A stretch of 64,000 bases of DNA from Flammula alnicola (taxonomy: Eukaryota; Basidiomycota; Agaricomycetes; Agaricales; Strophariaceae). Under the pieces are notes generated by a model. That model had not been told where the DNA came from. It saw only the letters and a program-made list of their open reading frames with translations, and searched no databases. The position numbers were made by a program, and so were the translations under genes. The stretch spans positions 25,706 through 89,705 of the forward strand of contig JADNRV010000199.1 in NCBI GenBank assembly GCA_015499995.1, in the 5' to 3' direction. The first letter of the stretch is position 1. Each line of letters opens with the position of its first letter. Positions 12,681-39,985 of the stretch are shown here, one piece after another.

Positions 12681-12694
12681 AAAGAAGCTAGTTC

Positions 12695-16184: not shown

Positions 16185-17526
16185 CTAGGCAAGGTCGAGG
16201 TTATTCTGCATGCGTTTAAGCTCCTTGAGAAGGAGCTCGCGATGCTGCAAATGGAACTCGATGCGGTGCAAACCGACAACGAGCTCGGCCTGGATCTCAC
16301 CAATAACCTTGCGATGAGCTAGCTCGTCGCCGGACGAAGAAGTCTTCTTGCTGACAAGGGCAGAAGCCTTCGCCAAGACCTCTTGAGAGTGCGCGTTGTT
16401 GACAGCGAGGTCAGAAGCTGTTGAAAAGAAAAATTAGAAACAAATGTCGAATATAAAAGACACAAAACGACGTACCCTCGACAAGAACAGCCGAGTGCCG
16501 AAAACATAGCTATCCTCAGTGCGCGCATGCTTAGAGGAGTCGCTATCGGCCGGGCCGGGACTTGTCAGAGCTATGAGCCAAGGCCTTGGAAGCCTTGAGA
16601 TAAGCAAGACTGTCAACATCCATGTTGGGAACTAGCGCGTATGGGAGACGTACCACCTCCGCGTTAGCAGAAAACTGGAGAGAGCGTCAGCTAAAAATAG
16701 AAAGATAAAAATAGATGCGTACCTGGCACTAGGTTCAGCACTAGGAGGCGAGCGTCTCTTGCGAGAGTTAGGATGCTCAAGCTCCTCGGAAACCTTAGAA
16801 GGAGACGTGCCGGGTCGGTAGCAGTGTCTGAGAACGATACGGTCGCCATCGACCTTCATCTGTTTAAAAACGCGCAGGAAGTCTTTAGATCAATAGAGGC
16901 TAGAAGGTAGATGGGATAAAATAAGCACCAAGTCGTCATCGTCGTCGACAATGATATCGGAAGGAGACGCACAAGCACCAGGAGCGGAGGCCGTCTCGAA
17001 ATCATCGGTCGCGCCCTTGCCGCGAGAACCGCGAGTGAAACGCTTCTGCAGAGAAAATCAAAAAGTCATCAGCTAGCTGAGACAGAATAGACAAATGGAA
17101 AACGCACGGAAGAGCTAGTGGCAGCAGCGGCCTTGGGACCAGTCGGAATATCGCCTTTGAGGGCACGCGGCTGAATGCTCAAGTGCAACGCGCAGACTGC
17201 AGCAGCCTTCTCGCTCAGCTTGTAGGGTTTGTGAGTATCCTGGAGCTCAGCAAAGATGTTGGCGACATGGGTGACAGCCTGAGCAGCGCCAGGGTTACTA
17301 GCGACAGTACTAGTGTGCGAGGACCATTTGGACTAAAGAAAAAGAAGTTAGAAAAGAAACAAAGAGAGAGAAGAAAAGCGCACCATAAGATACGCGGTTT
17401 CCTCAAGAGGTTGGGCATAGTTGGCCAACGTCGCACCGGGCCGCCACGAATAACATCGAGAAGTTTAACCTTCTGCATGATATCCGGGTAGCTAGGAAGG
17501 TTGCGTTGATGGTCAACAGAAGCCAT
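16185..17526 (-). pseudogene. asORF1 copy 1: antisense spliced gene of unknown function
   Basis: Starts MASVDHQRNLPSYPD at 17526. I read seven exons with GT-AG introns of about 45-70 nt: 17526-17384, 17332-17108, 17045-16929, 16859-16723, 16674-16654, 16609-16476, 16417-16185. The final exon ends LKRMQNNLDLA. A TATA-like box (TATAAAG) lies at 17603-17609. Exon 1 lost one base near 17445 relative to the copy at 25 kb (GGGCCGCC versus GGGCACGCC), and exon 6 does not read through, so this copy is probably dead. The predicted protein is about 335 residues, has an acidic patch (VDDDDD) and a basic KRRSPP stretch, and matches no family I know. Convergent with integrase. Confidence 0.6.
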
Positions 17527-17602
17527 TGAGAGGTAGAGGAGAAGAGGTGTGCAGAAAAGTAGAAAAGAAACTACTGGAGAACAAGAGCGAAACAGCTAGC
17601 CT

Positions 17603-17609
17603 CTTTATA
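17603..17609 (-). promoter_or_regulatory. TATA-like box of asORF1 (copy 1)
   Basis: Reads TATAAAG on minus, about 78 bases upstream of the asORF1 ATG and followed by a CT-rich leader. The same arrangement recurs upstream of the second copy at about 25309. It suggests a promoter separate from the LTR. Confidence 0.45.
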
Positions 17610-17859
17610 CCAAAGCTAGCTGCTGTTTTCAGACGACATGAGGCGATAGAGATAACGCCCTAGCTCAAGAAACAGTCTCAGAAGGGAAAACTCGAACCAA
17701 TCACATTGAAATGCGCATAGAGTACAGATTAATTGCAAATATCTACTCTAAAAGGCGTAGGAGGTCGGTTAAGAAGACATCGCGGCATTTGTGGTTGGAA
17801 TTGAAAAGAATAGGGTCGCGTTCAAAAGGAGTAACCTGTCATGCAGAGCGTATGGTCGA

Positions 17860-19606
17860 AGGGGCATGGTGGCTTAGCGGTTACTGTGTTGCCCTTAAGG
17901 GTGGCTGTGTACCATCCGAGACGTTGGGGGTTCAATTCCCCCAGATTCACATACGATAATTGTGGTCCGTGGGACTGTTCCGCGGGTCGCTGATGTAAGT
18001 CGCGCTCCATGTTGGGTTCGCTGTTGGCTGCTCGTTGGGCGGGACCCTCGGCAATCCACTGTAGTCCCGTTTAGGGCTTGTGGCGCCGCCTTGTAGGACC
18101 CTTTGTGTAAATCGTCTGCCATGTTGTGGGCGTGTCGGGGACTGCAGGCCGTTCCGTGCCTTAGGGCGCAAGGGCGCGATGCCGCTACAGGGGACGGGCA
18201 CAATGACCACCTCGCAGGCCTACGTCGGGGGCTGGGAGTGTCCGGGGTCCAACCAATTCCGCGGAATGTTGACGTAAGTCGACCGATGCAAAGCCGTATG
18301 ACCGATGTAAGCCGACCCTGGCCCTCGGGCAAAGCCGCTACGGTTCTGTAAATCGACCCTGGCTGAGGCTCGCTGTCGGCCTGTGGGAACCCCGCAAGGG
18401 GCCGAAAGGATAGGACACGATAAGATTGGGGGAATCGGGCGAAAACCATCCGACCATGGGAGTTCCGGGGTGATTCCCAGATCAATGATCCAGCCCGGGT
18501 TTCAACAACCCGGGGCAGTGACAGGATACCCAACACGGCAAGTAGATGTGGGTGCCGTCGTTAGTCGTCTGAAACGTACTCCCGGCTCCATGGCTGGGTA
18601 GAGTTTCACGGCAAGACAGTGACTCTGGACAGGATTGGGGATCCGCGCCCTTCTGGGCTTAAGCGAACCACCTGCCGGGGACGGGAAGTTCGGCCTGGAG
18701 TAACACGCCTAGGATTCACCGGATGGGCCGTGGCATGGTCGGGGCAGTCCCCTTACCTTGGCCCGAGAGATCAAATCCACTGTCGGTTCACACGGGCATA
18801 ATAGACTCCTGTGGGCTTAAGTTGTAGCCGGGGTGTTGGTGGGCTTACGTCGGCATGCCGACTGATGGATTGGGGACGGAATATATCGAACTCGAAAATG
18901 AACAGACCTAATAGGAAGGCGGGAAGAATGGCCGGTGCAGCCGACCTCCCCTGCCGTGTAAGCCGGAGGTGACTAGTATCCGCGGCACCTACTAGGCAGG
19001 TCCCCAAAGTGGGGCCGTTGATGGACCCCGAGTTCCGATTCGTCCGATGGTTGAGTAGGTGGGGTAATAACTCCCTACCGAAATCCCGAAGTAGCCCGCC
19101 AATAGGCCTCTCCGCAAGGAGGGGCCTAAACTTCGGCAGGTGTTTCCATTATGGTGCGATAAATCCCGCGAGGGCCGCAGCCGTGTTCGTTGCATGGCTT
19201 CGCTTGTGACTCTCTGAGTCTATTGCACGCGTCATTTGGAGGACCCGCCATGGTGTAACGATAACGTCGAGTTTGCCAACGAAGTGGGGAGAGCCGGGCA
19301 AGCTCTGACTTCATCTGGGTGACCCCCCCGTCCACCCTTTTAATCCATATCTACCTTACGTTCGGTAGCGTTAACAACGCCGCGCGTTTGTATTTCCTGG
19401 GCTGCGAGGTCTGCTATTTGGGTTTCAGGCTGCAGTGCAGTCTCGCCCGCGTCGCGCTCGCGCGCGCCGCATGCTCCCCTGCGAGCGACCAATTTCTTTC
19501 TTTTGCATTGGGTATTGTAGCGTACTCGTTTGTATTAGTTAGAGTCCGAGCTGCGATCGAGCTTCGGAATAAAAATTGTTGATATAAAAAAAAAAAAAAA
19601 AAAAAA
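17860..19606 (+). mobile_element. S2 SINE, tRNA-headed with LINE-B tail, about 1.75 kb
   Basis: Flanked by AGAGCGTATGGTCGA (17845-17859 and 19607-19621). The unoccupied site is seen at 25545-25562. The tRNA-like head has box A TGGCTTAGCGG (17870-17880) and box B GGTTCAATTCC (17929-17939). The body shares a core with S1 (near 18605-18800) and ends at GGGGCCTAAACTTCG. From about 19135 the sequence matches the LINE-B 3' UTR (57930-58384) to the poly(A). It is inserted in the last codons of antisense gene asORF2. Confidence 0.88.
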
Positions 19607-20114
19607 AGAGCGTATGGTCGATGCCTCAGCCACACCCTGTAAATGAGAAAAACGAGGCATGATTAGCAAAAACAGCTAGTACTCAAGAACACTGAGTTTA
19701 TACCTCAGCATAAAAATCCGCGATCTCATCCTTGGATAAGCCTAGAAGGTGTACATAATGATGCACCAAAAAGCGGTGAAGCTTGTTGAATAAAGCAGCA
19801 TTAGCTAGCTGGCGAGCGACGTTCTGCAAGTGGACTAGTTGCTTCAAGAGATCAAGAAAGCGAGCGTCAGGGTCAGGAGTCAGATGGAGAACGAGGATAG
19901 GCTCCTAAAAGAAAATGGGGTAATTAAGCGAGAATCAAAAAGGGATTCAAACAATGAGGCGTACGCAAAGGAGGCCTGCATGAAAGACCTCGCGTGCGAA
20001 GTCATTAATGTTGAGTGGACTTTGTTCCAAGGTATACTCGGAAAAATACAAAGCACCTGCCAAAGCATCGAGGGAAGCAGTAGGAATGGGTCGGAAGGTT
20101 GCAGGTGAAGCCAT
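19607..20114 (-). CDS. asORF2 copy 1: small antisense spliced gene, unknown function
   Basis: Starts MASPATFRPIPTASL at 20114. Exon 1 ends at HAGLLC, then an intron GTACGC...TTTTAG. Exon 2 is EPILVLHLTPDPDARF...FYAE, then an intron GTATAA...TTACAG. Exon 3 reads GVAEASTIRSA and stops. The total is 128 residues, but the S2 SINE cuts the last few codons from the rest. Exon 2 is helical and leucine-rich (LDLLKQLVHLQNVARQL), with no membrane segment. The second copy at 35049-35530 is nearly identical. No known family is recognised. It is one of four genes all reading against gag-pol. Confidence 0.6.
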
Positions 20115-20453
20115 CTGAATATTCAAGGACTGCTGCTAAAAACGCGTTCAAATCTGCATTAAATAACCAGAAAGCGCGGAGCGCCTTTGCCGAATAAGGA
20201 AATAGCTAGCGCCTGCCCAAAGGGATCAAAAAGGGTCGCATGATGGCAGTGCAAGCCAAAAATGGCAACTAGCTTGATTGGCGATCAACGGAAACACATA
20301 ACTTCGGCGCGATAATCAGGAGGTGCATGAACAAAAGACAAAGTCTTTAGGCACGAGGCATGGTGAAATTGCAAAAAGCAAGGCCTCAAGGCAAAAATGC
20401 ACATGTTATAATATAGCTAGCTAAACGAAAATCGAGCTAGTTGTAAGATTAAC

Positions 20454-20965
20454 TACATGGCATTTAAGAGAGATTCAGCCTAAAAAGCGAATTGAGAAAA
20501 AGCTAGGAGAGAAGGAGAAGAAAAATAACGAACTTGGCGGCCGTTTCAACGTCGACTGAAGCCTTACAAAGGTGGAATAATGTCGCGGATGACCGGCTGA
20601 GATGATAAGATACGCGATCTCCGGGAAAACAAAAAGCAAGAAGCTCTTGTTCGGACTCCGCAATCGACGATAATATGAAATATACGTCGGGATGTGCGGC
20701 GATATATTCCGGAGAAAGGTGAAGAGCGCACTAGGCAATAAAGTTAGACAAAGAGCGACGAAAGGTACAGCTAGGAAACAAAATGTACAGCGTCAGCAGC
20801 TAGCTGCCTAATGATGTCCACACCAGTGGAATGACAAGCGCTAGGGCGTAAATAGTCCGCATCAAATTGCAGAGTTGCGTCCTTGAGGCGTGCCAAAGTC
20901 GTGTCGATCAAGGAACGACGGGAGATCGTCGTAGAATGATCAGAGTCAGCTGAGAGAGTGGCCAT
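20454..20965 (-). CDS. asORF3 copy 1: small antisense spliced gene, unknown function
   Basis: Starts MATLSADSDHSTTIS at 20965. Exon 1 ends at QLAADA, and an intron GTACAT...GCCTAG follows. Exon 2 reads CALHLSPEYIAAHPD and on to ETAAK. A second intron ends TTTTTAG, and exon 3 adds AESLLNAM and stop at 20454. All exons stay in frame, giving 133 residues. A TATAAAAG box lies about 50 bases upstream (near 21013-21021). A copy at 35852-37328 is split by an inverted-repeat element. No known domain is seen. Confidence 0.62.
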
Positions 20966-21012
20966 GAAGAAAAGAACAAGAAATAGTTCGAAAAGAGCAC
21001 AACTAGTGGTAC

Positions 21013-21021
21013 CCTTTTATA
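21013..21021 (-). promoter_or_regulatory. TATA-like box of asORF3 (copy 1)
   Basis: TATAAAAGG on minus about 50 bases before the ATG. The same box is kept in copy 2 at about 37375-37384. The region further upstream on minus (21180-21310) repeats ACTTAG/AGTCTTAG-type motifs, also kept in copy 2. Confidence 0.5.
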
Positions 21022-21075
21022 AGCGAGATCAATCAGACGACACCCAGAATGCAACTGGGGACAGTTGATTTCTCG

Positions 21076-21090
21076 TGGGGGGGAGATAGG
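21076..21090 (+). other. PPT-like G-run inside the antisense module (copy 1)
   Basis: TGGGGGGGAGATAGG, preceded by GGACAGTTGATTTCTCG, resembles the true polypurine tract at 40441-40451 and the bases before it. It lies between asORF3 and asORF4, not next to an obvious LTR start. It could be an internal (central) tract or the scar of an older LTR junction. Confidence 0.4.
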
Positions 21091-21630: not shown

Positions 21631-23601
21631 CTAATTGTCGGTCTGCATGAGAGCATCGTCGAGTTCGTCGAGCTCGTCAGCCTCGCGAGAATCGTCTGGC
21701 TCATTGGGGTCGTGAGAGCCGGCAAGCGCGTCGTCGTTGAAAAGGTCGTCAGCTGCAATTTGAGTGGCAGCAACCGAGGACGAGGTAGACGGGGCTTGGC
21801 GAGAAGAACTGGCGATGGGAGTATCGGCAGACTGGTACGACTTGAAGGCGGTATCGGCGGCGGCATAAGCCAGGGCAGTCGACGCATCGTTGCTCGGGAG
21901 CTTGGCAAGAAACCCATTAGAAGTGGTCATGGGCGGAAAGCCAGGCTGGTTGGCCGATTCGTCGAGATAGGAGTCGAGGAGGGAATAGTCGCCGTTCAAC
22001 AAAGTATCCAAAACATCCATCCCTTCGAAGCGAGGGCCAACGATATGGCCAGGAGGGAAGTTGGTTTTGAGATAGCGGGCATGTTCCATCAGCTGCGCGA
22101 GGGAGAGTGCCGCCTGTCGATTGGCGCAGGCAGAAAGCTGGGCAAAGAGAGTAGCATCCTGAAGGAACTGGTTGATCTGGGCCACAAGGACTTGAAGCTC
22201 TGAAAGGAACATCTTAGAAATAAAATCAGGAAAGAAAAGGGTATAAAACGGACGGTGGCGCGAGGAAGAGACAAGAGGCGAGATAGACGCCAGCACTTGG
22301 TCGAGCTCCTGAGGGTTGAGCTCGAATGTGCAACGCGACTTGCCACCTCTCTGGCAAGGTCCACAGCGACGACCCCAGCCGATAAATTTACACTCATGAG
22401 GCTCTCCGGTAAAGAGATGAGTGGTACAGGCGAGGCAACGACCAGGATTCTGAAAAAAAAGGTCAGAAATCAAATAGGCGAGGAAACTAGTAGGACAAAC
22501 GCACCTGCAGACGTTCTGGTATATTGAAAACAATCTGGGAAGGGGAAACAGCATCCGGGTGGGCAGGACCAGGAGCCGACAAGATTTGTTGAGCGATGAC
22601 TTCGCGAGGCAGGATGGGGGGTTTGCCTTTGGCTTTGGCTTTGCCCTTCGCAATCTTGGGCGCGGGTTCTGGGTCATCCGCAAGCTCGTCGATTTGTTCA
22701 CCGTCAGAATCCGGAGGGGCAACGACAGAAGCAGTCTTGCGAGCCTGGGACCCAGACGGAGCCACTTTAGTGATAGGAGCTAGCAGTTAAAAAGTTAGAA
22801 AAGAAATCAAATAGGGAGACAAAAAACTCACAAGTAGCCCGCGCAGAAGCCTTGCGAGGTTTCGAAGAAGAAGTGATACCAGATGGAACTGGTGTCACTT
22901 TGGAGGGCAGAGTTCCCTGAGGCGGGGGAGCGGTCTTGAGTTGCGAGCGGGAATGAGTAGAGATGGAAGGAGCCGGGGAAGGAGCGGTTTGATGAGAAAT
23001 AGTCGGGGCCGGAGGATCTAAATAGAAGTTAGAAAGAAGAAAGGGAAGGAAGGTTAGAGACGGAAGGACGTACTGACTCTCTTACACTTTTTAGGGGGAC
23101 CAGTCTTAATGGAAGGAAGAGGTACTTCAGGCGGGGAATCAGACTCCTCGCTAGCCTCGGCGTCCTCCTCGCTATCCTCGACAGGGGTGCCGCGATACTC
23201 GTAGGAAGCTAGGAGACGGGTCGACAGGAGAAAATGATTGTCCGGCTAGAAAAACAAAGGGATAAGGGAATGGAAAGTAGGAAGACGCAGGAAGAACTTA
23301 CGTTAAAGTCCTCTGGAGACTTGCGAATCAGCCAGGTGTTCCACGCGGGGGGACGACTACCGAGCTCATGAGCGGCCACTGAGAGAGAGGTGGCAAATGC
23401 GCGAAGAGCATCGCACTCTAATAAGTCGTTGGGATAACGCGCTAGGTGCTTAGACAGAGGACCGTGGATATTGTTGATAGTATTGAGGATATCAGACGCA
23501 GGGGGGTGCCGGCCAGAAGCCCGATGTGAACTAAAGATCCTGGAAGTAGGCCTGATCAGATCACGAATGAAGGCAAAATGGTCGGGGGATGTCGAAGCCA
23601 T
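21631..23601 (-). CDS. asORF4 copy 1: antisense spliced gene with Zn2Cys6-like cysteine cluster
   Basis: Starts MASTSPDHFAFIRDL at 23601. Exon 1 runs to 23302 (100 codons) and about five more exons follow, separated by short GT-AG introns. The middle is rich in Pro/Ser/Lys with acidic patches (DSGGEQIDEL-like) and a KGKAKAKGK basic stretch. Near 22400 lies a cysteine cluster with C-X2-C-X11-C-X8-C-X2-C-X7-C spacing around GWGRRCGPC, reminiscent of fungal Zn2Cys6 DNA-binding domains but with a longer first loop. A helical segment (LVAQINQFLQDATLFAQL) and an acidic tail ending ALMQTDN follow. It may be a nuclear DNA-binding protein; this is inference. Exons looked open by eye. Confidence 0.58.
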
Positions 23602-23646
23602 GGGGAAAATGAAAGAAGAGAAGAGAATGGTGGAAAAAGTTGAACA

Positions 23647-23680
<34 letters not shown>

Positions 23681-24768
23681 ACAATTTCAAATGTAGGGCC
23701 CCTCCGAAGAGAGACCCTATGCCTTGCGCCCTTGCGGGGCAGACAGCAGCTTGCGCTGCCACTTGGAATCAACTTAGATTCAATACCCGGCCTAATCAGC
23801 CGAGTGAACCGACAGAGGATTTAGTGCTCTCAAGCTGGGTCACAAGGGACTGCCTTGGCCCACTACGGCTCGCGTCTCACCGGGGAGTTATTATAGAGCC
23901 CCAGCTACTCGGTTTCCCGTTGCAGGGCAGATGGTTCGCTGAAGCCAACCGGCGCGGATCCCCATCTGTCCCCACTCTCTGCCTTGCCAGCAACCAACCG
24001 TGTTGTGCATCCGAGAATCGATCCGACAGACAGATCTCAGCACGGAGTTATTTCCAGCTTGGTTTCCCATATTGGTGCGCATCGGTCCAGGAACTCTTCC
24101 GCCCTCCATTTCTTAGAACAGACGGCCTCCCTCCCAGAGTGTCAACTAACGCCTCGGGGCAAACCCCCTACAAGCTCCCAGTATGGGACTGGGTAACCCA
24201 GGTCCGAATTACAACCACCCGCCGAAGATCCCTGGTGGGGACCCCTTTGGGCACAGTCTACAGGTCCAAGCCTGAGTCTGTTGGGCCCCTGCCGTCAAAT
24301 TGCCGACTAACAACCCTTACTAATCCGGTTTATGCCAGCAAGCAGCTGGACCGGGAGTTCGTGGTGGAGGGTGGCCTGGCCCTTCTCAGGACGTTCGGCT
24401 TGTTCTATATAAACTACCCCCGCTTACTGCCCCCTGTGCTTTCGCTCCCGTAATGGGTACGACTGGTGTATCAAGCCAGCCAATTTGGGGTACGGTGAAT
24501 GTTCCCCCCCGATATGCCGCGGGCTTGCCAGGCCCAGAGATCCGCATCCCACTCGGCCGGAGGATCATGACATCCAGCCTTAGTCCTACAGCCGTTTACC
24601 GGCATGCAGTACCGATTGTGACTGTAACCAACTGTTTGTCACAAACTCCTTCCTTTGTAATCAGGTAGAAGGGATGAATGGGAATCGAACCCACAACCTT
24701 TCCAGCAGCTGCACAGCCACCTCAACAGGTCTTTAGTGATCGAAACCACTGGGCTACTGTGGCCCCCC
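23647..24768 (-). mobile_element. S1 SINE, second copy, at the junction of two antisense modules
   Basis: The inverted copy of 9443-10556 with poly(A) as T at 23647-23674 and the tRNA-like head at the right (box B complement at about 24686, box A complement at about 24750). The flanks do not match as a target-site duplication. The left side is the asORF4 leader (AAAGTTGAACA, as at 40010-40020) and the right side is asORF1 intron 2 (GTCATCAGCTAGC, as at 17065). This points to recombination between two S1 copies or to loss of one flank. Confidence 0.85.
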
Positions 24769-25232
24769 GTCATCAGCTAGCTGAGACAGAATAGACAAAT
24801 GGAAAACACACGGAAGAGCTAGTGGCAGCAGCGGCCTTGGGACCAGTCAGAATATCGCCTTTGAGGGCACGCGGCTGAATGCTCAAGTGCAACGCGCAGA
24901 CTGCAGCAGCCTTCTCGCTCAGCTTGTAGGGTTTGTGAGTATCCTGGAGCTCAGCAAAGATGTTGGCGACATGGGTGACAGCCTGAGCAGCGCCAGGGTT
25001 ACTAGCGACAGTACTAGTGTGCGAGGACCATTTGGACTAAAGAAAAATGAAGTTAGAAAAGAAACAAAGAGAGAGAAGAAAAGCGCACCATAAGATACGT
25101 GGTTTCCTCAAGAGGTTGGGCATAGTTGGCCAACGTCGCACCGGGCACGCCACAAATAACATCGAGAAGTTTAACCTTCTGCATGATATCCAGGTAGCTA
25201 GGAAGGTTGCGTTGATGGTCAACAGAAGCCAT
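24769..25232 (-). pseudogene. asORF1 copy 2: 5' part only, undamaged frame
   Basis: Starts MASVDHQRNLPSYLD at 25232. Exon 1 reads through CGVPGATLANYAQPLEE to LM, showing the frame lost in copy 1. The intron GTGCGC...TTTAG follows, and exon 2 reads SKWSSHTSTVASNPG to TSSS. The copy is cut at 24769 in intron 2 by the S1 junction, so exons 3-7 are missing. Identity with copy 1 is very high by eye (about 98%). The upstream TATA-like box is kept. It cannot make the full protein. Confidence 0.65.
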
Positions 25233-25589
25233 TGAGAGGTAGAGGAGAAGAGGTGTGCAGAAAAGTAGAAAAGAAACTACTGGAGAACAAGAGCGAAACA
25301 GCTAGCCTCTTTATACCAAAGCTAGCTGCTGTTTTCAGACGACATGAGGTGATAGAGATAACGCCCTAGCTCAAGAAACAGTCTCAGAAGGGAAAACTCG
25401 AACCAATCACATTGAAATGCGCATAGAGTACAGATTAATTGCAAATATCTACTCTAAAAGGCGTAGGAGGTCGGTTAAGAAGACATCGCGGCATTTGTGG
25501 TTGGAATTGAAAAGAATAGGGTCGCGTTCAAAAGGAGTAACCTGTCATGCAGAGCGTATGGTCGATGCCTCAGCCACATGTCGGAGATT

Positions 25590-25775
25590 TAAATTTGGCG
25601 TTACAACACATTTGGCATTGTAACGGCCGTTGAAGCCGAGATCCAGCCTTCCTAATTTAGCTGTAACTGCCGAGCTTGCCGGCGTGACCATTGTGACGAT
25701 AGCTGTAATCGGCATTGCCGTTGTGACGATAGGATGTAATCGGCATTGCCGTTGTAATGCCCTGTAACACCCGAG
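25590..25775 (+). repeat. Subterminal repeats of the Plavaka element, left side
   Basis: GTAATCGGCATTGCCGTTGT is repeated (near 25708 and 25738) together with GTGACGATAG and GTTACAACAC/GTAACGGCCG variants. Such clustered short repeats near the ends are where CACTA-like transposases bind. The right end has related GTTACAATGCG and GTGACA motifs (34970-35030). Confidence 0.6.
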
Positions 25776-25901
25776 CGCCTCTTGATCGATGTTGATTGCT
25801 TGCACACATCCACAATATACCCTCTTCCTCGACGTTTCTTGAACAAGGAACCCACACATTCATTTCCTGTACCACTACTTCTGTTGTTGTACACTTTTCC
25901 C

Positions 25902-29514: not shown

Positions 29515-29642
29515 TAGAGTCGTCTGCAGATTATTAGCCGAGTATGTAATAATCGATAATCGTTCGGAACTTGGTATCTTTGAACATCTCTCTTGCTTCG
29601 CTGTGATCCTCCACACCTACACAACCTTCTTCTCTTCTCAGT

Positions 29643-31488
29643 CATGCCACGCAAGAAAACAACACCTGAAAGCGAGGGCGAGAAATTCAGTGATCCCAGC
29701 TCTGGCAGTGACGACACGAGCAGTGAAGAAGAGGTGGTTGAAGACACCTGGGTCTTCCCTCTTATTCCAGATGATGCAAAGCGTTCTGTATTCAAAGCAG
29801 TATGTGGAAGTTTACCTCCCAAATATTCAAACCAGACAATGATCTTCCTTTATAGGTACTCAAAGAGGCCCAGCTCAAAGTAAGCGAGCTCCAGTTCACC
29901 AACCGTAAACTCCTTATGCGCAATGCGGAGCTCGTGGCGCGACTCAAGAAGTCTAATGGGTCTCAACGTCAAAAGTCTGGAAATAAGGAGTCGCTTTCGG
30001 ATGCAGAACTTCGTATTTCACGCTTCGCAAAACTCTTTGGAGTCATGCATGAGCCCTTCGTGCTTCCACCAGCGCTTACTGCACGGCCATCTATGGATAG
30101 TACAGATCCCAGAAGATACCAGTCTGACCTCTCGAAGCTACAAGGTATCACAGCAGAGCTTTATGAGGTATTGCCAGACGACATGCACGAGCAGATTCAG
30201 TTTAGTTCATCCTTTCGCAAGCTGGTACGTGGTCAAGGTCTGCTCTGCAAATTCCTGTCGCATGTGACTGAATTCAAAAGTAGTTTCTAGCCCAGCTGAG
30301 TAGTGGCCGTCGAACCATGATGCACCAGCTTCGTTCAAAAACTGCCACCAAAATTTTCCACCAACTAGCTGAATATTATGAAGTTGACTTCGAGCGCGAA
30401 ACTATACCCAAATTCCAAGCAAAACTGAAGTTCCCCAACGAGAAGGAGTACTCAAAATTTGCACCAATTCTCTTTCCAGAAGGGAAGCGCAACATGGCAA
30501 AGCTTTTTCGCTCTGTCGAGCTTACAGCTGTAATGTACATTTCATTAGTTGTCGAGACGTTGAGGCTCATAGAAAGTGCTCTTCAAAATTAGATGTTAAA
30601 GTCCATTCTCTTCGGCCCCACATCTTTGACTTCCAAAAAACCGCCTTCATCTATTACGCAGGGAAGAGTCTGGGGATTAACGTTCACCACGCCTGGTGCT
30701 ATTGCGCTCATGGCCACTCTCGTGAGTTACTTAATTCACAATGCAATCATCTCGTTAATGAGTATTTATTTGTAAGGCAATCTTTTTACATTCTCCGGAC
30801 AAAGAATTTGCACAAACTGGTGCGCAGTCCAAGATCCCTTACCAGAAGTGGTTTGACCACTACAAGAGCTTCTTAATGAAGAACGCGGAAAAGCAGGAAA
30901 TCACGGAGCTATTCATGTGGTGGAATGCGCGCGTCTTTTCATTCAATTCAGCTACACAGGATGACGAGGGGAGTGAGGAGGAAAGTAGTGGCATGGATGA
31001 AGCCGAGCGTGTTCTCAATGCGGGTAATTCTGACTCGGGAACATCTGCGATGGACCGAGAACGTGATGTTTGGGCCAACAATTACCAAACCCATGGCGGC
31101 GGCGACGATGAAGACTTTGTTGATCAGTTCAACAACCTCGCAGTCGACATGCCAGAGAAATCAGCCCAGCCAAAATCATCAAGCAGGGCCCGCTCCTCCT
31201 CGTCTACTGGTGTTTTATCTTTAGATACTGCTGCTCCCGATCCATCAAGCTCCAAGTCCCAACCAGAGGTTACCGCAAATCAGGAGCCCGCCCAAGATCA
31301 GATTGCGCTGCCCAAATCCAAACATACGTCAAGTCAAAAGCCGAAACGTGGCCCGTCGAACACCAAGGGGAAGCAAAAGGCAGTAGCTGTCAACGTTGAA
31401 GGTGATTTGGTAGGAGAAGATCCTCAGGCTATTGAGAACAGAGGTGCTGGGAGGACACGGAGTCTGAGATCCAGGAAGGAATTTTAGT
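29643..31488 (+). CDS. Accessory gene of the Plavaka element (possibly DUF6698-like)
   Basis: Starts MPRKKTTPESEGEKF. Five exons: the first ends at KRSVFKA, then VLKEAQLKVSELQF (coiled coil) to SSFRKL, AQLSSGRRTMMHQLR to VELTA, MLKSILFGPTSLT to ALMATL, and AIFLHSPDKEFAQTG to the end. The central part (QGRVWGLTFTTPGAIA, WFDHYKSFLMKN, LFMWWNARVF) resembles the DUF6698 pattern of basidiomycete proteins, though I cannot confirm it. The C-terminus is a long acidic and Ser/Pro/Lys-rich tail. All five exons read in one frame. It lies 128 bases downstream of the transposase in the same direction. Function unknown. Confidence 0.65.
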
Positions 31489-31639
31489 AGTCGACGGTCG
31501 TATACCTGCCTCAACGCAGCTGCAGCTTTTTCTCTATTCTGTCGTAACACAGATATCATGTAATTAGATTGATGCTCTCTGCATATTAACGTGAACAGCG
31601 GCATGATGCAGACCGATCGTGGGTTCAACATTCAACAGT

Positions 31640-32146
31640 CATCAACTCTGATCTTAACCTTGCAGCACCCTCTCTCTCTGAAGCAGAAGAGAACGGATAC
31701 CAAGGCGCATACTACTTCACCTCTCCATCTGCCCATCCAGAAAATAGAGAAGCATTTCCTCCAGCTCGCCTATCGACACCCGAAAGTCAGCAATTACGCA
31801 ACCCAATGTTCCGTCTCTCCCAGAGACTGACGGAGAAACCGAGACTGAACCGAGGGTTTCACGACCGAGCCAGAACACGAAATTCCACGCACCTCAGAGG
31901 TCGTTTTCTTTGGGCTGGAGGAACAACAGGAGAAGAATATCCTCGAAGACATCGAGAAAGCAGGCATCATGAAGCAAAAGATCGACGAAAGCGATTGGGA
32001 GATTAAATTTACTGTATGTCATTCTGGAGTCTCACCCTTATCCCGTATATTAAAATCTTGCCGCAGCACGACCCACACATCGCGTATCCGCGCATATACA
32101 ATGATTTATTCAGTGAGTCTTTCTAACCGTCTAGTTTCGATGACCA
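31640..32146 (+). pseudogene. Unidentified host-like exon fragments in the Plavaka element
   Basis: A reading with ENGYQGAYYFTSPSAH, then after a frame change EVVFFGLEEQQEKNILED and MKQKIDESDWEIKF, is followed by an intron GTATGT...CCGCAG, a short exon HDPHIAYPRIYNDLF and another donor GTGAGT. It looks like real coding sequence with splice sites but in broken frame. I do not recognise the gene. It lies between the accessory gene and the VPS10-like piece. Confidence 0.4.
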
Positions 32147-32280
32147 TAACAATGCCTCTTAGCGCTCAAATCTCGTTCCCACCTCCTCAACTCTCTATCG
32201 CTCACGCCCTCACCCAATCAACCCCTCTCACACGTTACGAGACGAAAGCCCAACGCATCCTCTCTTCGCCACTTACGATG

Positions 32281-32408
32281 TCCATACCCAAACAGCTCGC
32301 AGCGTCAGGCGGCGTGGACAGCGTTGGCGAATACTTGCGGAACTACAAGAAGAGCGACACTTTCTTGAGCACGGATGCTGGTTTGACATGGCGAATGATC
32401 ACGCAAGG
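32281..32408 (+). pseudogene. VPS10/sortilin-like exon fragment
   Basis: Reads GGVDSVGEYLRNYKKSDTFL then STDAGLTWRMITQG and ends at a GTACGC donor. The pattern VGEYL...Y...DTFLSTDAGLTWRM is the beta-propeller repeat region of fungal VPS10, the vacuolar sorting receptor. Only about 40 residues remain, with no rest of the gene nearby. I infer capture by the transposon. Confidence 0.55.
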
Positions 32409-32462
32409 TACGCAGATATTCTTTTGAATGACATTTGAGCTGCTGTCTGAAAAGTTTCTTCT

Positions 32463-33057
32463 AGTACCCAAGCGCTCGAGGACGTCGGGAAGCATACTTC
32501 AAGCCGCCCTGTGCTATCTGGAAGCAATGGATGACGCCCATCTTGACCAATCGACGACCGGCGACGACCTGAAGACTGTCCGAGTTACCGACAATGAAGC
32601 CGACGATTCAGATTCCATGCAGCAGCTTGGAGATGGAGACAATGTTTCTCTCTCCAGCCTGCTCGTAGAGCCTTCAACTTCGTCCGACTCCGCACCGACG
32701 ATGATATCATCGTCGCCTTCGTTGCCCTCCCCTCTTCTCTGCCCTCGAAACACCTTTCTAGCATCCCTCATTTTGGCATCGAAGTTTTTTCAGGATAAAT
32801 GCTACTCTAATCGTCCTTGGGCTAAGTTGTCCGTTCTACCCCCACGAGAAATCGGCCGTTGCGAACGCGCCCTTGGCCAAGCCTTGGAATGGTCCTTCTG
32901 GGTCGGAAAAGGTCCCATTCAGAAGCAGACCAGCTCGCCACCTACTCGCGCCATCATCAGATCTCAGAGCGAAAGCTTCGTACTCGCGACTCCAGTCGGC
33001 AACATCTCCGCTCCTTCTGTCAACAAATCACTGCGCGAATGCGCGACATTATGTTAA
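32463..33057 (+). pseudogene. PHO80-like cyclin fragment
   Basis: Reads VPKRSRTSGSILQAALCYLE, an acidic loop of about 50 residues, then LLCPRNTFLASLILASKFFQ, NRPWAKLSVLPPREIGRCER and LGQALEWSFWVGKG, ending SVNKSLRECATLC. This is the cyclin box of fungal PHO80/Pcl-type cyclins with its usual Ser-rich tail. It begins at a splice-acceptor-like TTCTAG, so the first exons are absent. One open reading of about 195 residues remains. A full gene would bind a Pho85-type kinase; this piece lacks the N-terminus. Confidence 0.7.
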
Positions 33058-33099
33058 ATGTGCATGCACCAGCTGCACCGCCCCCAGCACCACCACCGT

Positions 33100-34540
33100 C
33101 GATCGTCATCAGGGGACATTGAAAAAATTAGCGCGACGTATGACGCCCTGTTGAAGCAATACCCGAATAACGTATGTCGTGTTGTCGCCTCCGCTTTTGG
33201 TGGTTTTCCATTGTCGTTTCGTCGTCCTTAACAAAGCGATATGCATCTATCTCTCTCAGGCTACGACGCAAATTCAATATATCAGCCATTTCGTGAATGG
33301 ATCCGTCTACATTTGAGCGTGCCACGGATCTCTTCAAGAAGTTTTTGATTCGATCTCCGTGTGTTGAACTTTGGATTTACTACCTGAATTACGTGCGGTA
33401 CGCCGAACCGAATTTATAGTCTCGCCCTTTATCTAACACGAACACGTAGACGTATCAATGTCGAATCTACTCAGCGAGATGATGTCCGGATGTCGTACGA
33501 GTTCGCCTTGAATCACGTCGGGCAGGATAAGGACAGCGGGCAGATCTGGGGCGACTATATCCAATTCCTTAAGAGTGGCCAGGTACGTCAGTGGCACACC
33601 TCTATTTTCCATCCTCTAACGAATGCTTATAGGCTACAACGACATGGGAAGAACAGCAAAAATGGACGCGTTACGCAAAGTCTACCACCGCGCTGTACAG
33701 ATCCCGTTGGACAACGTTGAGCGTTTATGGCAAGAACTCGAGACCTTCGAAACCAATCTAAACAAAATCACCGCCAAAAAGTTCATGGCGGACCTCTCTC
33801 CGGCACACATGCAGGCCCGCACCGTCCTCCGCCAACTCATCAACCACGTCACCCCGCTTTACGCTTCAAACTCGCAAGAACTCTTCCTCCCGTCGCTGCC
33901 CAAATTCGATGCGTCCGAGCGGGCTCTCGTAGGAAAATGGAAAGCCTACTTGAAGTGGGAAGAGAGCAATCCGTTAGAGATCGAGGACAAGGACAAGGCT
34001 ACGCTAATCACAAGGATACAAGGAGTGTATAGGAAGGCCGTGATTCGAATGAGATATTACACCGAAATTTGGTATGAGATTGCTCTTTCTTTCATTCCAT
34101 GTGTGCTTATCGTAACTTTACGCCCTCATTTCCTCTTCCCTTTCGCGATTCTTACTTGATCATACCTCCAGTTTCCTCTTAACATTCGCCTACGCCGAAG
34201 CCATGCAAATAAAAAAAAGATTTCGCCGATGTGCACGCCACGTACGAAAAATTCCTCGGCATCCTACAAGCAAACCTCGAGACCCTCCAACAGACAACAA
34301 ATTCCGCTAACACATCCTTTTCCTCAAACGTCCCAGGGCAAAATAACGGTGCCGGCAACGGCAACGCACCTGCCAATATGTCTGGAGGCGAGCCTGGGTC
34401 GAATAACTCCTCTTTCAACACACAAGCGTCGGACGAGAGGCCGAAAAAGACGACAGAGCTGCAGCGAGATTGCCAGATGTGGAGGGAGAGGATGAAGAAG
34501 AACTCGAGGAGGGCTGGGATCACATTGTATTGTAGCTTTT
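33100..34540 (+). pseudogene. RNA14/CstF77-like fragment (HAT repeats), broken
   Basis: Reads GDIEKISATYDALLKQYPNN, ATTQIQYISHFVNG, then after a one-base shift STFERATDLFKKFLIRSP and ELWIYYLNYVR, RINVESTQRDDVRMSYEFAL, GQDKDSGQIWGDYIQFLKSG, KVYHRAVQIPLDNVERLW and KWKAYLKWEESNPLEIED. These are HAT repeats of the mRNA 3'-end processing factor RNA14. Short introns are kept. A second shift lies at an A-run near 34210, and the match fades at TELQRDCQMW. The C-terminal part of the gene is missing. With introns kept, it is a DNA-level copy. Confidence 0.72.
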
Positions 34541-35046
34541 TTATATATAATGTTGTTATCATTTCATTTAGCCAACTTGCAGTAAAACCCGTCGCATACC
34601 CGTTACCCATGCACCCGTGGTGGTTCAACCCATGGGTATGTGGGTATGGGTTTTGACGGGTAAGGGTACGGGTATGCGGCCCAAGGTATGCCTCGGGGCA
34701 CCCGAGGGTTACCCGTGCATTTGCCTACAAATCTCACCCAGATCTGGATCCGTCGCCGTAGCTCTCTCAAATCAAGTGGAAGATGTGTATTTAGCCTGGT
34801 ATTGGCCATCTATCTATGCAGTATACTCTATGTAGGCCAGCTGGATCGGCACCACCGCCTGCCGGCTCAACACCGTTGCAACGGTGGTCATTTGCCTTAA
34901 CGGGTGTTATACCGGTCCGGCTGCTTGCTATAGCATCTGTTACAAACATTCTCGTTCTTATAGAAACCCGTTGTCACACCCCCTGACCGTTAAGGGGGTT
35001 ACAATGCGTGACACCGCGTGACAACTAAAAATGAACTTTTGGGACA
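34541..35046. repeat. Right arm of the Plavaka element
   Basis: Holds an imperfect palindrome of CCCGT/ACGGG units (about 34588-34690, centre near AACCCATGGGT) starting with CAGTAAAACCC, which could be a small hAT-like relic. It is followed by subterminal motifs GTTACAATGCG and GTGACA. No gene is seen in it. Confidence 0.5.
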
Positions 35047-35048
35047 GT

Positions 35049-35530
35049 CACCCTGTAAATGAGAAAAACGAGGCATGATTAGCAAAAACAGCTTGTACTC
35101 AAGAACACTGAGTTTATACCTCAGCATAAAAATCCGCGATCTCATCCTTGGATAAGCCTAGAAGGTGTACATAATGATGCACCAAAAAGCGGTGAAGCTT
35201 GTTGAATAAAGCAGCATTAGCTAGCTGGCGAGCGACGTTCTGCAAGTGGACTAGTTGCTTCAAGAGATCAAGAAAGCGAGCGTCAGGGTCAGGAGTCAGA
35301 TGGAGAACGAGGATAGGCTCCTAAAAGAAAATGGGGTAATTAAGCGAGAATCAAAAAGGGATTCAAACAATGAGGCGTACGCAAAGGAGGCCTGCATGAA
35401 AGACCTCGCGTGCGAAGTCATTAATGTTGAGTGGACTTTGTTCCAAGGTATACTCGGAAAAATACAAAGCACCTGCCAAAGCATCGAGGGAAGCGGTAGG
35501 AATGGGTCGGAAGGTTGCAGGTGAAGCCAT
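35049..35530 (-). CDS. asORF2 copy 2
   Basis: Starts MASPATFRPIPTASL at 35530 and matches copy 1 almost base for base over exons 1 and 2, including both introns. The Plavaka transposon is inserted at the first bases of exon 3. The few remaining codons and the stop lie on the far side (25560-25578). Loss of the last 11 residues could be tolerated only if a new end is read. Unknown function. Confidence 0.58.
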
Positions 35531-36255
35531 CTGAATATTCAAGGACTGCTGCTCAAAACGCGTTCAAATCTGCATTAAATAACCAGAAGCGTAGAGCGCC
35601 TTGGCCGAATAAGGAAATAGCTAGTGCCTGCCCAAAGGGATCAAAAAGGGTCGCATGATGGCAGTGCAAGCCAAAAATGGCAACTAGTTTGATTGGCGAT
35701 CAACGGAAACATATAACTCCGGCGCGATAATCAGAAGGCGCATGAACAAAAGACAAAGTCTTTAGGCACGAGGCATGGTGAAATTGCAAAAAGCAAGGCC
35801 TCAAGACAAAAATGCATGAGTTATGATATAGCTAGCTAAACAAATTTCGAGCTAGTTGTAAAGAGTAACTACAGTAGCATTTAAGAAAGATCCAGCCTAA
35901 AAAGCGAATTGAGAAAAAGCTAGGAGAGAAGGAGAGGAAAAATAACGAACTTGACAGCAGTTTCAATGTTGACTGACGCCTTACAAAGGTGGAATAAGGT
36001 CGCGGATGATCGACTGAGATGATAAGATACGCGATCTCCGGGAAAACAAAAAGCAAGAAGCTCTTGTTCGGACTCCGCAATCGATGATAATATGAAATAT
36101 ACGTCAGGATGCGCGGCAACATATTCCGGAGAAAGGTGAAGGACGCACTAGGCAATAAAGTTAGACAAAGAGCGACGAAGTGTACAGCTAGGAGGCAAAA
36201 ACGTACAGCGTCAGCAGCTAGCTGCCTAATAACATCCAAACCAACGGAATGAGCA

Positions 36256-37190
36256 ATACTTTTCATTCCTCCACTGATTCCTCCCAGAATGACCGGATTC
36301 CAGAGGAATGGACCGGAATCCACAGGAATGGACTCAATTCCGCAGGAATCCTGACCGGAATCCACAGGAATGACCAAAATTCCGGTTAGGACTTCAACTT
36401 GGTGGACTTAGACAGAACTCAGAGAAAAATATCACTCAAAGATTTTGCATCTTTCAGGAATTGAACCCAGAGCCTCGGAAGAAATCCAGTAGCTAATATC
36501 CCAGACCATTTAACCATTAGACCAGAGAACTGTTGCCAATCTGCCAAAAACATCGGACTACATACCCTATCTATCTATAATATATTTGTAGATTGCGTAA
36601 CCAATTCTGAGAGATTCAGGGTCAATGGGGTACCATTGGATTCAGAATTTTAAGGAGATTACAAATATGTATATGTCATCTCACTCGGGTAACTGAAATC
36701 ACCTTATTTGGTCTGTTTTTGGGACCGTGGGAACTTTTTGCCAAAAAAAGTAACTGTAGAGCATGCTTCCAGAATCACAAATATATCAAAATCATGTGAC
36801 TAGCTGCTTTCATCATCGAGAAAAACGCAAAAAACTCGCCCAAAGCCGGCGGTTTTGAAAATTGCACTTGCTAAATATGAAATATCTTGATTAGAAATAG
36901 GTCCCACAGTCTTATTTTGATGTCATTTTATGTAATAGTGTGATATTTTCACATTGTTGCTAAAAATAACCATATTTCCTTTTTTGGAAAAACCGGATTC
37001 CGGTGGCCATTCCGTTCCGGCCATTCCTGTTGGGTATTCCGGTTGCAGCTTATTCCGGTCTGCATTCCTCCGGAATGAAATTTCGCATTTTGGCTGGCCT
37101 CTCAGCCAAAATGACCCAAAAATTATTCCTCCGGAATGACCGGATTCCGCAGGATTCTGGTAGGAATCAGTGGAGGACAATAAAGACCTC
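36256..37190. mobile_element. Non-coding inverted-repeat element with 10 bp target duplication
   Basis: Flanked by GGAATGAGCA at 36246-36255 and 37191-37200. The ends share CCTCCACTGATTCCT followed by CCAGAAT in inverted orientation, set about 10 bases in from each edge. The arms are built from many GGAATCC/GGATTCC and CCGGAAT units that can fold back, plus a perfect 11 bp hairpin (CATTTTGGCTG) near 37090. The middle holds a tRNA-like stretch. There is no ORF. The duplication length suggests a MULE-like non-autonomous element, but this is uncertain. Confidence 0.65.
36455..36533 (-). other. tRNA-like sequence inside the inverted-repeat element
   Basis: On minus it has a box-A-like TGGTCTAATGGTTAAATGG and box B GGGTTCAATTCC, spaced as in a tRNA. 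The T-arm pairs imperfectly and I cannot fold a convincing acceptor stem, so it is more likely a relic or internal Pol III promoter than a working tRNA gene. Confidence 0.4.
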
Positions 37191-37438
37191 GGAATGAGCA
37201 GCGCCAGGGCGTAAATAGTCTGCATCAAATTGCAGAGTCGCGTCTTTGAGGCGTGATAAAGTCGTGCCAATCAAGGAACAAGAAGAGATCGTCGTAGAAT
37301 GATCAGAGTCAGCTGAGATAGTCGCCATGAGGGAAAGAACAAGAAATAGTGCGATTAAAAGCACAACTAGTTGCACCCTTTTATAAGCGAGATAATCAGA
37401 CGACGCCCAGAATGCAACTGGGGACAGTTGATTTCTCG

Positions 37439-37453
37439 TGGGGGGGAGATAGG
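37439..37453 (+). other. PPT-like G-run (copy 2)
   Basis: TGGGGGGGAGATAGG in the same context as 21076-21090, upstream on minus of asORF3. Its conservation in both modules and its likeness to the true polypurine tract at 40441 suggest a role or a shared origin. Confidence 0.4.
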
Positions 37454-37716
37454 AATGGCTAGCCGCAATTCCTAGCGATACTCCGGACTTACAAAGATAA
37501 AAACTGCGAACTAGCTGACTCCTAAGCAGCAAGTAAGCAGCTAGGACTTTGAAATAAACTAGGTCTTAGTAAAACAAAGACACAGTATGGACTTAGAAAG
37601 AAAAACTAGTCTACTATAAAGTCAAATCTTAGACTTGACTTAAGGTGTTAGAGACTTAGGTTTTGTGCTTAGGGTCACACCAGAGAATACAGCACAAGAA
37701 AATTTATATTAACAAG

Positions 37717-37838
37717 TAGTGAGACTGTAAAGTCTCACTACTGACAAAAAGATATAAGGGGGACGACGATCTAAAAAGATCGCCGCCCCCAAGGCAAAAG
37801 TATCGAAGGGGACGATGATCTAAAAAGACCACCGCCCC
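37717..37838. other. Three stem-loops between asORF3 and asORF4 (copy 2)
   Basis: Same three hairpins as 21352-21472. Stem 1 (TAGTGAGACT) is identical. Stems 2 and 3 keep pairing although flanking bases and G/C run lengths differ. They sit directly downstream of asORF4. Confidence 0.6.
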
Positions 37839-38002
37839 CGCAGCGTGCAACGTCCAAAAACTATATACGTGACGTTAAAAATAAAAGGCCCCCGTGAGCC
37901 GCCCAAGACACCCGCTACCGACCAATGAACGCAAGACAACGACAGAGATTTCTATATACAAATAAAAGAGGTATGAGGGAAAAGTCGGTATCGAGTAGAA
38001 AT

Positions 38003-39985
38003 CTACTGGTCGTCGGTCTCCATGTCATCGGGAGGGTCCTCGTGGTCGCTGCTCTGATCGCAAGGCTCCGTGTCTGGAAGCTGGCTCTCGACGTTGTGGG
38101 GAGAAGTGACGGCACGAGAAGAGGAATGCTCCTCGGCGACCGAAGACTCGACGGTGTGGAAGGCTTCAACCACGGCGTTGACAGCGTCAAAAGCGTCGAC
38201 CGTAGACGAAGGATCCGCGGTAGGGCTGGCAAAGACGCGCTTGAGAGTTGACATAGGAGGGAAGCCACGTTCGGTGGCCGATTCATCGAAATAAGACTCG
38301 GGAATGGAGGGGTCGCAGGAAAGCAACATGTCCAAAACGTCCATGTCCTGGAAACGGGGACCAATGATATGGCCGGGGGAAAGTGCGTCTTGAGGAAGGT
38401 GGCGTGGTCCAGCAGCTGCAGGATAAGCGCAGCAGCATTGCAGTTGGCACGGTCGGCCAACTGAGCAAACAAGGCGCCGTCCTGGAGAAGTCGATCGATC
38501 TGGATAACGAGCACACGAAGCTCTAAAATAAAAATAAAAAAGAGAGAAGTTAAATAGAAAAATCGAGTTAGAGAAAATAAACAACAACATACGATCGCGT
38601 GAAGAGGTCGTGAGGGGAGAGATAGAGTGCAAGACCTCATCAAGCTCCTCAGGCTTGAGCTCGAAGGTGCAACGCCGCTTGCCCCCTCTCTGGCACGGTT
38701 CGCAACGACGACCCCAACCGAGGAACTTGCAGATGTGAGGCTCACCCTTGAAAGTATGGGTGGCACAGGCCAAGCAACGACCAGGATTCTATAAAAAGGG
38801 ATCAGGAAAAAGAAAGAAATATATAGAGCAGATACGATATACGTACCTGCTCAGGGGCTGGGACCGAAAGATTGACCAAAGAGGCGGGGATAGCCTCCTT
38901 GTGGGCAGGTCCCGGGGCTGACAAAGTCTTCTGGGCAGCGACTTCACGAGGAAGGAGCCCTTTTGGGGTTTTCGCCTTAGCTTTGCCCTTCGAGGCCTTA
39001 GGCGCAGGTTCGAAAGCTTGGTCATCCTCGAGCTCATCAACCTGCTCCTCCTCAGAGTCTTCAAGATCAATAACAGAAGAAGCTGGAAGACCACGAGGAG
39101 CGGACGAGGTAGAAGGAACCGCTTTAGCCACAGGAGCTACAATGGAAAGATGTTAGAAAATAAAAATAATAAAATGGAGGAACGAAACTTACAAGTAGCA
39201 CGCACAGAGGTAGTGCGAACCTTGGAAGAAGAAGGCTGAGCGGCCACCTTAAGAGCTAGGGTTGGCTTCGGAGGAATGACTGCCTGGGAACGAGCAGAGG
39301 TTTTGGTCTGGCAAGGGCGCAAACGTGTAGAAACGGAAGGAACAGGCGAGAGAGCAGCGTGACGACGAGAAGCGGCAGGAGGTTCTAAAAAAAAAAAAAA
39401 AAAAAAAATGGAGGTTAGTAAAAACAATAGAGGAGTAGAGAGTGGGGGAATACGTACCAACACGTTGACGTTTGGAAGGAGGCCCAGTACGCAAAACAGA
39501 GACTGCGGGGGCCTCAGGTGAGGAATCGGAATCGTTGGACCCATTGGCGTCTTCGTCGGAGTACTCGCCAGGTTCCCCAACATAAACGTAACTGGCGGGA
39601 AGGATGGTAGTGCGAAAGAATTGGTTGTCGACCTGAAGAAGCTGTGGTTAGACAAGTAGTAGGGGAAGGGACAGGATAAACTTACCTGAAGGTTGTTAGG
39701 GGTGTTCTGGATCAACCAGACGTTCCAAGAAGAGGGACGAAAAGGAAGCTGGTACGCCGCCAATGACAAAGAGGTCAGAAATGAACGGAAGGGCTCGCTC
39801 TCAATAGGATCATCGGGAAAATGCCACAAATGCTGGAGGAGGGGATCCTGAATAGCCTTGAGGGCTGCGCGGATTTCGTCGGCAGGAGGGTGGGTGTTAG
39901 AAGAGCGACAAGAGATGAAGACCTTAGCTGTCTGTTTGATGAAAGCGCGGATAAGCGCGAAGTGATCAGCAGAAGTCGAGGTCAT
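38003..39985 (-). pseudogene. asORF4 copy 2, diverged, with one frameshift
   Basis: Starts MTSTSADHFALIRAF at 39985 and has the same exon plan as copy 1. The cysteine cluster at about 38660-38770 keeps the exact C-X2-C-X11-C-X8-C-X2-C-X7-C spacing (GWGRRCEPCQRGGKRRC). The acidic DLEDSEEEQVDELED patch and KGKAKAKTPKG stretch match in position. One base is missing near 38386, after LLDHATFLKT. Protein identity to copy 1 is only about 50-60% by eye, much lower than for asORF1-3. One intron has a 24-base T run (39385-39408, as A) before its acceptor. The tail is MDTDDQ-like and acidic. Confidence 0.58.

Follow-up and report, generated by a model that had tools for sequence, protein, structure and literature searches.

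The 64,000-nucleotide window analysed here (C111:25706-89705 of the 74.4-Mb Flammula alnicola genome; C-numbers denote other contigs) contains two copies, A and B, of GypA, a retrotransposon family with long terminal repeats (LTRs) in which four predicted genes, asORF4, asORF3, asORF2 and asORF1, lie on the minus strand between the integrase and the 3' LTR. asORF4 stands tail-to-tail with pol, and some 470 bp separate the start of asORF1 from the 3' LTR. The arrangement had been proposed in a first-pass annotation of the sequence, each part of which was tested by self-comparison, genome-wide searches and gene modelling. The span proposed there is correct: asORF4 ends with its stop at 16185, and the second copy of asORF1 has its start codon at 39985. 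In copy A the genes are laid out as follows.

16185-17526, minus strand: asORF4, exons 17384-17526, 17108-17332, 16929-17045, 16723-16859, 16476-16674 and 16185-16417; frameshifted
17743-17845, minus strand: end of the last exon of asORF3, severed by an insertion; early stop
19608-20114, minus strand: 5' part of asORF3, exons 19965-20114 and 19704-19904 and the start of the last exon, 19608-19636
20503-20965, minus strand: asORF2, exons 20789-20965 and 20506-20730 plus the stop codon; 134 amino acids
21631-23601, minus strand: asORF1, exons 23302-23601, 23074-23245, 22832-23017, 22505-22779, 22254-22449 and 21631-22199; 565 amino acids

The gene models contain 13 predicted introns. The six exons of asORF1 in copy A are separated by introns of 52-56 bp, and the spliced model is identical to the GenBank protein BDZ97DRAFT_1927820 (565 amino acids). 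asORF4 also has six exons, with introns of 49-70 bp, and encodes 354 amino acids on C237; its frame is open in C237, C461, C516 and C645 and broken in the other six of the ten copies compared, including copy A. asORF3 has three exons, the last of which is interrupted in copy A. The claim that each gene carries several short GT-AG introns thus needs qualification: it holds for asORF1 and asORF4, with five each, but not for asORF3, with two, or asORF2, with one. All introns in the three clean asORF1 copies (A, C545 and C237) and the four open asORF4 copies are GT-AG and 48-70 bp long. In the alignment of 11 asORF1 copies, GT-AG ends are present in 48 of the 55 intron intervals; the other seven belong to degenerate or incomplete copies (two in C212, one each in C77 and C81, and three in C468, two of these without sequence). 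Clean loss of introns alone was seen in none of the 11.

Three of the genes are preceded by a TATA-type box on their own strand, one more than the minimum of two that the first-pass annotation had named, and these boxes are conserved across copies.

17603-17609, minus strand: asORF4 box TATAAAG, 83 bp upstream of the ATG; kept in 10 of 10 copies
20159-20165, minus strand: asORF3 box TATTTAA, 51 bp upstream of the ATG; kept in all 10 copies that cover it (one of 11 rows falls short)
21013-21021, minus strand: asORF2 box TATAAAAGG, 56 bp upstream of the ATG; kept in 11 of 11 copies

The chance expectation for such boxes on the minus strand is 0.079 per 90 bp. The distance from the asORF1 ATG to the LTR is 467-471 bp at ten loci, and the asORF1 promoter may lie within this leader of about 470 bp or in the LTR.

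The host family is assigned to the Ty3/Gypsy-type LTR retrotransposons on the sequence features listed here.

1-120, plus strand: 3' end of the 5' LTR of copy A (whole LTR, C111:24367-25825)
123-140, plus strand: primer-binding-site-like stretch, 2 bases past the 5' LTR; read by eye
12681-16055, plus strand: pol, with a reverse transcriptase (RT) fragment, RNase H and integrase; stop at 16055
40442-40451, plus strand: polypurine tract directly before the 3' LTR; read by eye
40452-41910, plus strand: 3' LTR, 1459 bp, with TG...CA ends

The integrase reading frame matches the Pfam family Integrase_H2C2 (E = 3.4e-16) and resembles the integrases of prototype foamy virus (4.3e-12) and Ty3 (3e-7); upstream of it lies an RT_RNaseH_2 match (E = 1.9e-5) under the Pfam cut-off. 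The RT fragment shows a weak likeness to the Ty3 RT (best PDB match, E = 0.16), and no RVT_1 match was found with Pfam in the broken pol copy of the window or in nine frames of C12. At 55711-57873 the window also contains a 720-residue frame with an RVT_1 match (E = 6.9e-10), in repeats unlike GypA pol. The polypurine tract, the primer-binding site and pol all agree on the plus strand, so the asORFs are antisense. Both a polypurine tract and a primer-binding-site-like stretch were found by eye in the window and on C12, and the start of the latter is identical behind the 5' LTRs of C235, C740 and C12. The C12 element measures 16.45 kb end to end and has both LTRs, 97.0% identical and with flanks that mismatch at one of four bases; behind its 5' LTR come a 690-residue frame without a Pfam match and then a frame with a sub-threshold DUF4100 match.

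The LTR pair of the window is 95.6% identical, with flanks CCGG and CCAG. Genome-wide, 37 matches cover the whole length of the LTR among the 40 of 474 candidates scored. Flanks were taken for ten LTRs, two 5' LTRs and eight solo LTRs: judged by eye, seven of the eight solo LTRs have an exact 4-bp target duplication with a central CG and one has a mismatch, and an automated test for 5-bp duplications found none at the ten. Just upstream of the window, C111:22905-24366 (L068) consists of nested pieces of the GypA LTR in opposite orientation, all of them interrupted at one and the same CCGG roughly 200 bp into the LTR; the family may have reused one target inside its own LTR, consistent with NCGN target duplications. 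A second pair of repeats in the window (17065-17859 and 24769-25565; 795 bp, 99% identical) was considered as LTRs and rejected, as these are gene segments. In copy A their right edge, at 17859/17860, coincides with the border of a polyA-tailed insertion that is flanked by a 14-bp target duplication, other copies run through it uninterrupted, and the segment is contiguous with the asORFs in C545 and C82.

Genome-wide, scoring of 77 of 110 candidates placed asORF1 at a minimum of 28 loci, spread over 25 contigs. At 20 of the 28 (C111 A, C111 B, C545, C82, C56, C77, C468, C237, C12, C102, C860, C347, C212, C224, C630, C689, C81, C66, C461 and C516) pol or a whole or partial LTR stands in the expected place, and at two more, C556 and C779, the contig ends beside the end of pol. 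The asORF4 stretch was found on 25 contigs, with pol directly before it on 22; C779 and C556 begin at that point and C224 lacks that end. Further GypA copies carrying the genes were looked for and found, and the antisense genes are, on this sequence evidence, a property of the element family and no chance insertion, as had been claimed from the two window copies. The alternative that the asORFs are ordinary host genes beside Gypsy elements, or were captured once by a few copies, draws on six of the 28 asORF1 loci that are tied to neither pol nor LTR (the second loci on C12 and C102, and C159, C73, C601 and C205), and on GenBank, which labels the proteins as ordinary hypothetical proteins. It is largely refuted, and we hold it to be very improbable, given the 20 tied loci, the constant spacing to the LTR at ten of them, the pol facing asORF4 on 22 contigs and the recurrence of the same gene order in two diverged subfamilies (see below). 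An apparent sense orientation of the asORFs on C545 was rejected, since two elements are adjacent there. A subtelomeric gene family was likewise discarded: many loci lie near contig ends, because the assembly breaks at repeats, but the listed telomere-repeat sites are on other contigs. On C73, asORF1-like and pol pieces (108295-109668 and 111712-113658) occur on the same strand within 4 kb, unlike the usual arrangement, and are perhaps two nested elements.

Weak asORF4 matches (E = 5e-6 to 1.4e-5) pointed to a related subfamily, here termed C45 and read at locus L067, the pol of which is 54-58% identical to GypA pol over the longer matches and faces antisense genes. L067 shares the domain order of RNase H followed by H2C2 integrase and has an asORF4-like antisense gene (E = 5e-9) and, behind a 3' splice site, a cysteine exon with the pattern C-x2-C-x9-C-x8-C-x2-C-x6-C. 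The asORF4-like gene occurs at 14 loci of this subfamily, and at 11 of them the pol match starts 69-71 bp away, tail-to-tail; of the others, C519 and C66 begin at the contig end, and no pol is listed for C10. A third subfamily, read at one locus (L069) and 63-65% identical to C45, has a cysteine exon lacking one cysteine (E = 6e-5) and an asORF4-like stretch (E = 0.004). Its C-terminal exon was found at 17 loci, facing pol at 14; C47 begins at the contig end, and C163 and one place on C545 have no listed pol. The E-values for L067 and L069 were computed over 2091 frames, the best unrelated frame scoring 0.3, and the cysteine exon was examined at one locus in each subfamily. From these comparisons the module is judged to be old and selected and to recur in two further Gypsy subfamilies, the cysteine-motif exons by weaker evidence.

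In a more distant element, C8 (38-39% integrase identity), no trace of the module was found within 6.5 kb downstream. This observation, together with the look of a transplanted block that its own TATA boxes give the module, would fit an origin from another mobile element or a virus, inserted long ago in antisense and since preserved as a remnant. The outgroup evidence is a single locus, and Pfam shows no likeness to a transposon or virus family; we therefore regard such an origin as on balance unlikely. It concerns where the module came from and is compatible with the ambisense organization argued for below.

Selection on the proteins was assessed from the ratio of nonsynonymous to synonymous substitution rates (dN/dS). 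Among 11 asORF1 pairs, the eight diverged ones gave 0.13-0.26 (A/C545 0.26, A/C237 0.14, C545/C237 0.16, A/C77 0.20, A/C347 0.19, C347/C237 0.13, C77/C237 0.21 and C77/C347 0.21). For asORF3, comparison with C81 gave 0.25 from 121 differences over 117 codons, both frames being open, and five closer pairs gave 0.18-0.42; for asORF4, six pairs gave 0.09-0.24, with C81/C12 too alike to compare. By these ratios protein-level selection acts on asORF1, asORF3 and asORF4. The pol-sense frames over exon 6 of asORF1 have stops in most copies, with one frame open in A and C468; the antisense reading of this exon stands because of the GenBank protein match and the dN/dS values. Together with the conserved boxes, the same two lines of evidence uphold the claim of four intron-bearing antisense genes between integrase and 3' LTR.

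The convergence of pol and the antisense genes, so close in the C45 subfamily, raises the alternative that antisense RNA is the main product, with convergent transcripts pairing with element RNA and feeding silencing while the proteins are minor. Regulation through double-stranded RNA is discussed for plant antisense open reading frames (aORFs) in PMC7264820. Selection at the protein level in three of the genes argues against this, as does the better conservation of exons than introns (70.9% versus 54.0% identity for asORF1 between A and C237), and we consider RNA as the main product quite improbable; an RNA role is compatible with a role of the proteins.

We thus consider it likely, from sequence comparison, that GypA and its relatives form an ambisense Ty3/Gypsy-type family, with gag-pol on the plus strand and four accessory genes on the minus strand before the 3' LTR, the module being old and selected. 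Several observations weigh against this reading, in addition to the six untied asORF1 loci. The majority of copies are degenerate: only three of 11 aligned asORF1 copies translate cleanly with the exon bounds used, the rest having frameshifts, stops or missing parts, and four of ten asORF4 copies are open. Three very close asORF1 pairs have higher dN/dS (A/C82 0.40, A/C56 0.41 and C102/C237 0.32), the asORF4 pair L014/A has a ratio of 1.41, from 11 differences, and asORF2, with 0.30-0.55 over nine close pairs, is the weakest case of the four. asORF1 has no TATA box within 200 bp upstream in copies A and B, an insertion having replaced part of the upstream region in copy A, and the profile search recovers the asORF1-like exon of L067 at no better than E = 0.057. 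Finally, the AlphaFold model of asORF1 is unusable (mean pLDDT, the model's per-residue confidence score, of 39.7) and lends no structural support to the regulatory role considered below.

The window itself holds no intact element, both copies being broken and composite. Copy A, extending from its 5' LTR to 23601, has received at least four insertions (from 1204, 11936, 17860 and 23649). Copy B begins at 24769 inside asORF4, lacks the 5' half and ends in the 3' LTR, with inserts at about 25579-35047 and at 36253-37190.

17860-19607, strand not assigned: polyA-tailed insertion in asORF3, with the 14-bp target duplication 17846-17859 / 19608-19621
23649-24768, strand not assigned: polyT/polyA-tailed insert upstream of asORF1 of copy A, abutting copy B
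24769-25578, minus strand: copy B, parts of asORF4 and part of the last exon of asORF3
35049-36252, minus strand: copy B, matching copy A at 95% identity over asORF3 and a part of asORF2
37191-39985, minus strand: copy B, remainder of asORF2 (37191 to about 37.5k), together with asORF1 (38003-39985; GenBank model of 548 amino acids)

No target duplication was seen at the A/B junction, and A and B are most simply explained as parts of two elements joined by recombination. The insertion at 17860, with a tRNA-like head recognized by eye, belongs to a group of related polyA-tailed repeats in the window (17860-19607, 23649-24768, 42239-43804, 48795-49189 and 57699-58407). The 0.94-kb insert in asORF2 of copy B (36253-37190) has imperfect inverted ends rich in ATTCC/GGAAT and close relatives on C77 and C274. 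Within the larger insert of copy B, 31849-34159 contains host-type gene fragments, one frame fusing DUF155 and Vps10 pieces and being followed by a piece of Suf, an mRNA 3'-end factor; another mobile element seems to have captured these gene fragments.

In Pfam the proteins match no known family, in line with the first-pass annotation. A Pfam search with 18 asORF1 members gave as its best match DUF2016, in one member (E = 0.097), and asORF1, asORF2 and asORF4 have no Pfam match; asORF3 has a sub-threshold match to AbiJ_NTD3 (E = 0.021; 14.7 bits, cut-off 32.5). A PDB profile search with asORF1 yielded two matches (E = 0.57-0.59), which we attribute to chance. Protein homologs of asORF1 all come from F. 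alnicola, whether the search used the whole protein (18 proteins), an 18-row profile (18) or region 300-470 (15); this search covered asORF1 and depends on shared five-residue words, so that distant relatives can be missed. asORF1 shows a cysteine cluster (C-x2-C-x11-C-x8-C-x2-C-x6-C), an extended low-complexity central region containing basic patches, a helical segment (helices from the low-confidence model) and an acidic tail, and by our own reading some of the patches resemble nuclear localization signals. Zn2Cys6 transcription factors have a CX2CX6C spacing. asORF1 resembles these fungal factors (Zn_clus) in its six cysteines, arranged C-x2-C ... C-x2-C-x6-C, its basic patches and its acidic tail, but it differs in a second-to-third cysteine spacing of 9-11 and in the absence of one cysteine from the L069 version; the Zn_clus profile of Pfam matched none of the 18 members at E = 0.1.

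A cysteine motif followed by a helical stretch would also suit a structural or nucleic-acid chaperone factor of the particle, akin to a nucleocapsid-like cysteine protein. A TATA-driven antisense mRNA would be a roundabout route to a particle protein, and in our reading the acidic tail and basic patches suit a nuclear protein better; a particle role seems improbable to us. On the regulatory reading, asORF1 and asORF4 would be nuclear proteins that influence how the element itself is transcribed, silenced or integrated. By analogy with HBZ and GENE23 we propose tentatively that the two may be nuclear regulators of the element, a suggestion to which we attach less than even confidence.

Single antisense genes in LTR retrotransposons are already known. 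In plants, such genes (aORF-3R) lie between pol and the 3' LTR in maize Grande (gene23), rice RIRE2 and Silene Retand; they are kept in most copies of a family, and gene23 of Grande is driven by a promoter of its own and yields a nuclear product, according to PMC7264820 and PMC11963269. The Flammula genes, as far as these papers describe the plant cases, are alike in being antisense, in lying between pol and the 3' LTR and in being kept across the family, and differ in numbering four, with 13 introns and three TATA boxes, in a basidiomycete host. The term 'intron' is absent from the main text of PMC11963269 and PMC5408684, and TRP28 (PF04195), the domain of the Retand antisense ORF, has no Pfam match in the Flammula asORFs. 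Among fungi, Boty/BcGypsy1 of Botrytis cinerea carries an antisense gene, brtn, between pol and the 3' LTR (Zhao et al., 2011, as described in PMC7264820 and PMC8365987). Compared by description, it is likewise a fungal Gypsy element with an extra antisense gene in this position, but it has one gene and an ascomycete host, against four genes in a basidiomycete. HBZ of human T-cell leukaemia virus type 1, which PMC11963269 names as a parallel for the plant aORFs, is also an accessory gene encoded in antisense close to the 3' LTR, and its product is a nuclear regulator; the likeness is one of working principle only, HBZ being a single protein of an animal retrovirus. The four-gene intron-bearing block looks like the novelty here: in a search of mostly open-access literature, which did not extend to the fungal aORF papers cited in PMC12786077, no report of a multi-gene intron-bearing antisense module was found, in a basidiomycete or elsewhere.

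The orientation of the genes offers a possible explanation for their introns. Introns antisense to the genomic RNA would escape removal during copying of the element, and intron-bearing genes could therefore travel with it, because antisense introns are not spliced from the genomic RNA, as is established in retrotransposition biology. A fuller proposal, which we regard as possible but doubtful as a whole, is an ambisense lineage in which four separately promoted, intron-bearing genes have been kept through at least three Gypsy subfamilies, the strand permitting the introns, and in which at least one product would be a new nuclear regulator, a counterpart of HBZ in principle, controlling the element from the 3' LTR side.

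This case bears on the general question of what antisense genes do in LTR retrotransposons. Within one genome it offers four clear, intron-containing gene models along with TATA boxes, 28 or more loci of the main family and two more subfamilies, so that selection, age and function are measurable here, in a mushroom order that includes a laboratory model species. For the biology of these elements, the sequences suggest that a retrotransposon can retain introns over time if the non-packaged strand carries them.

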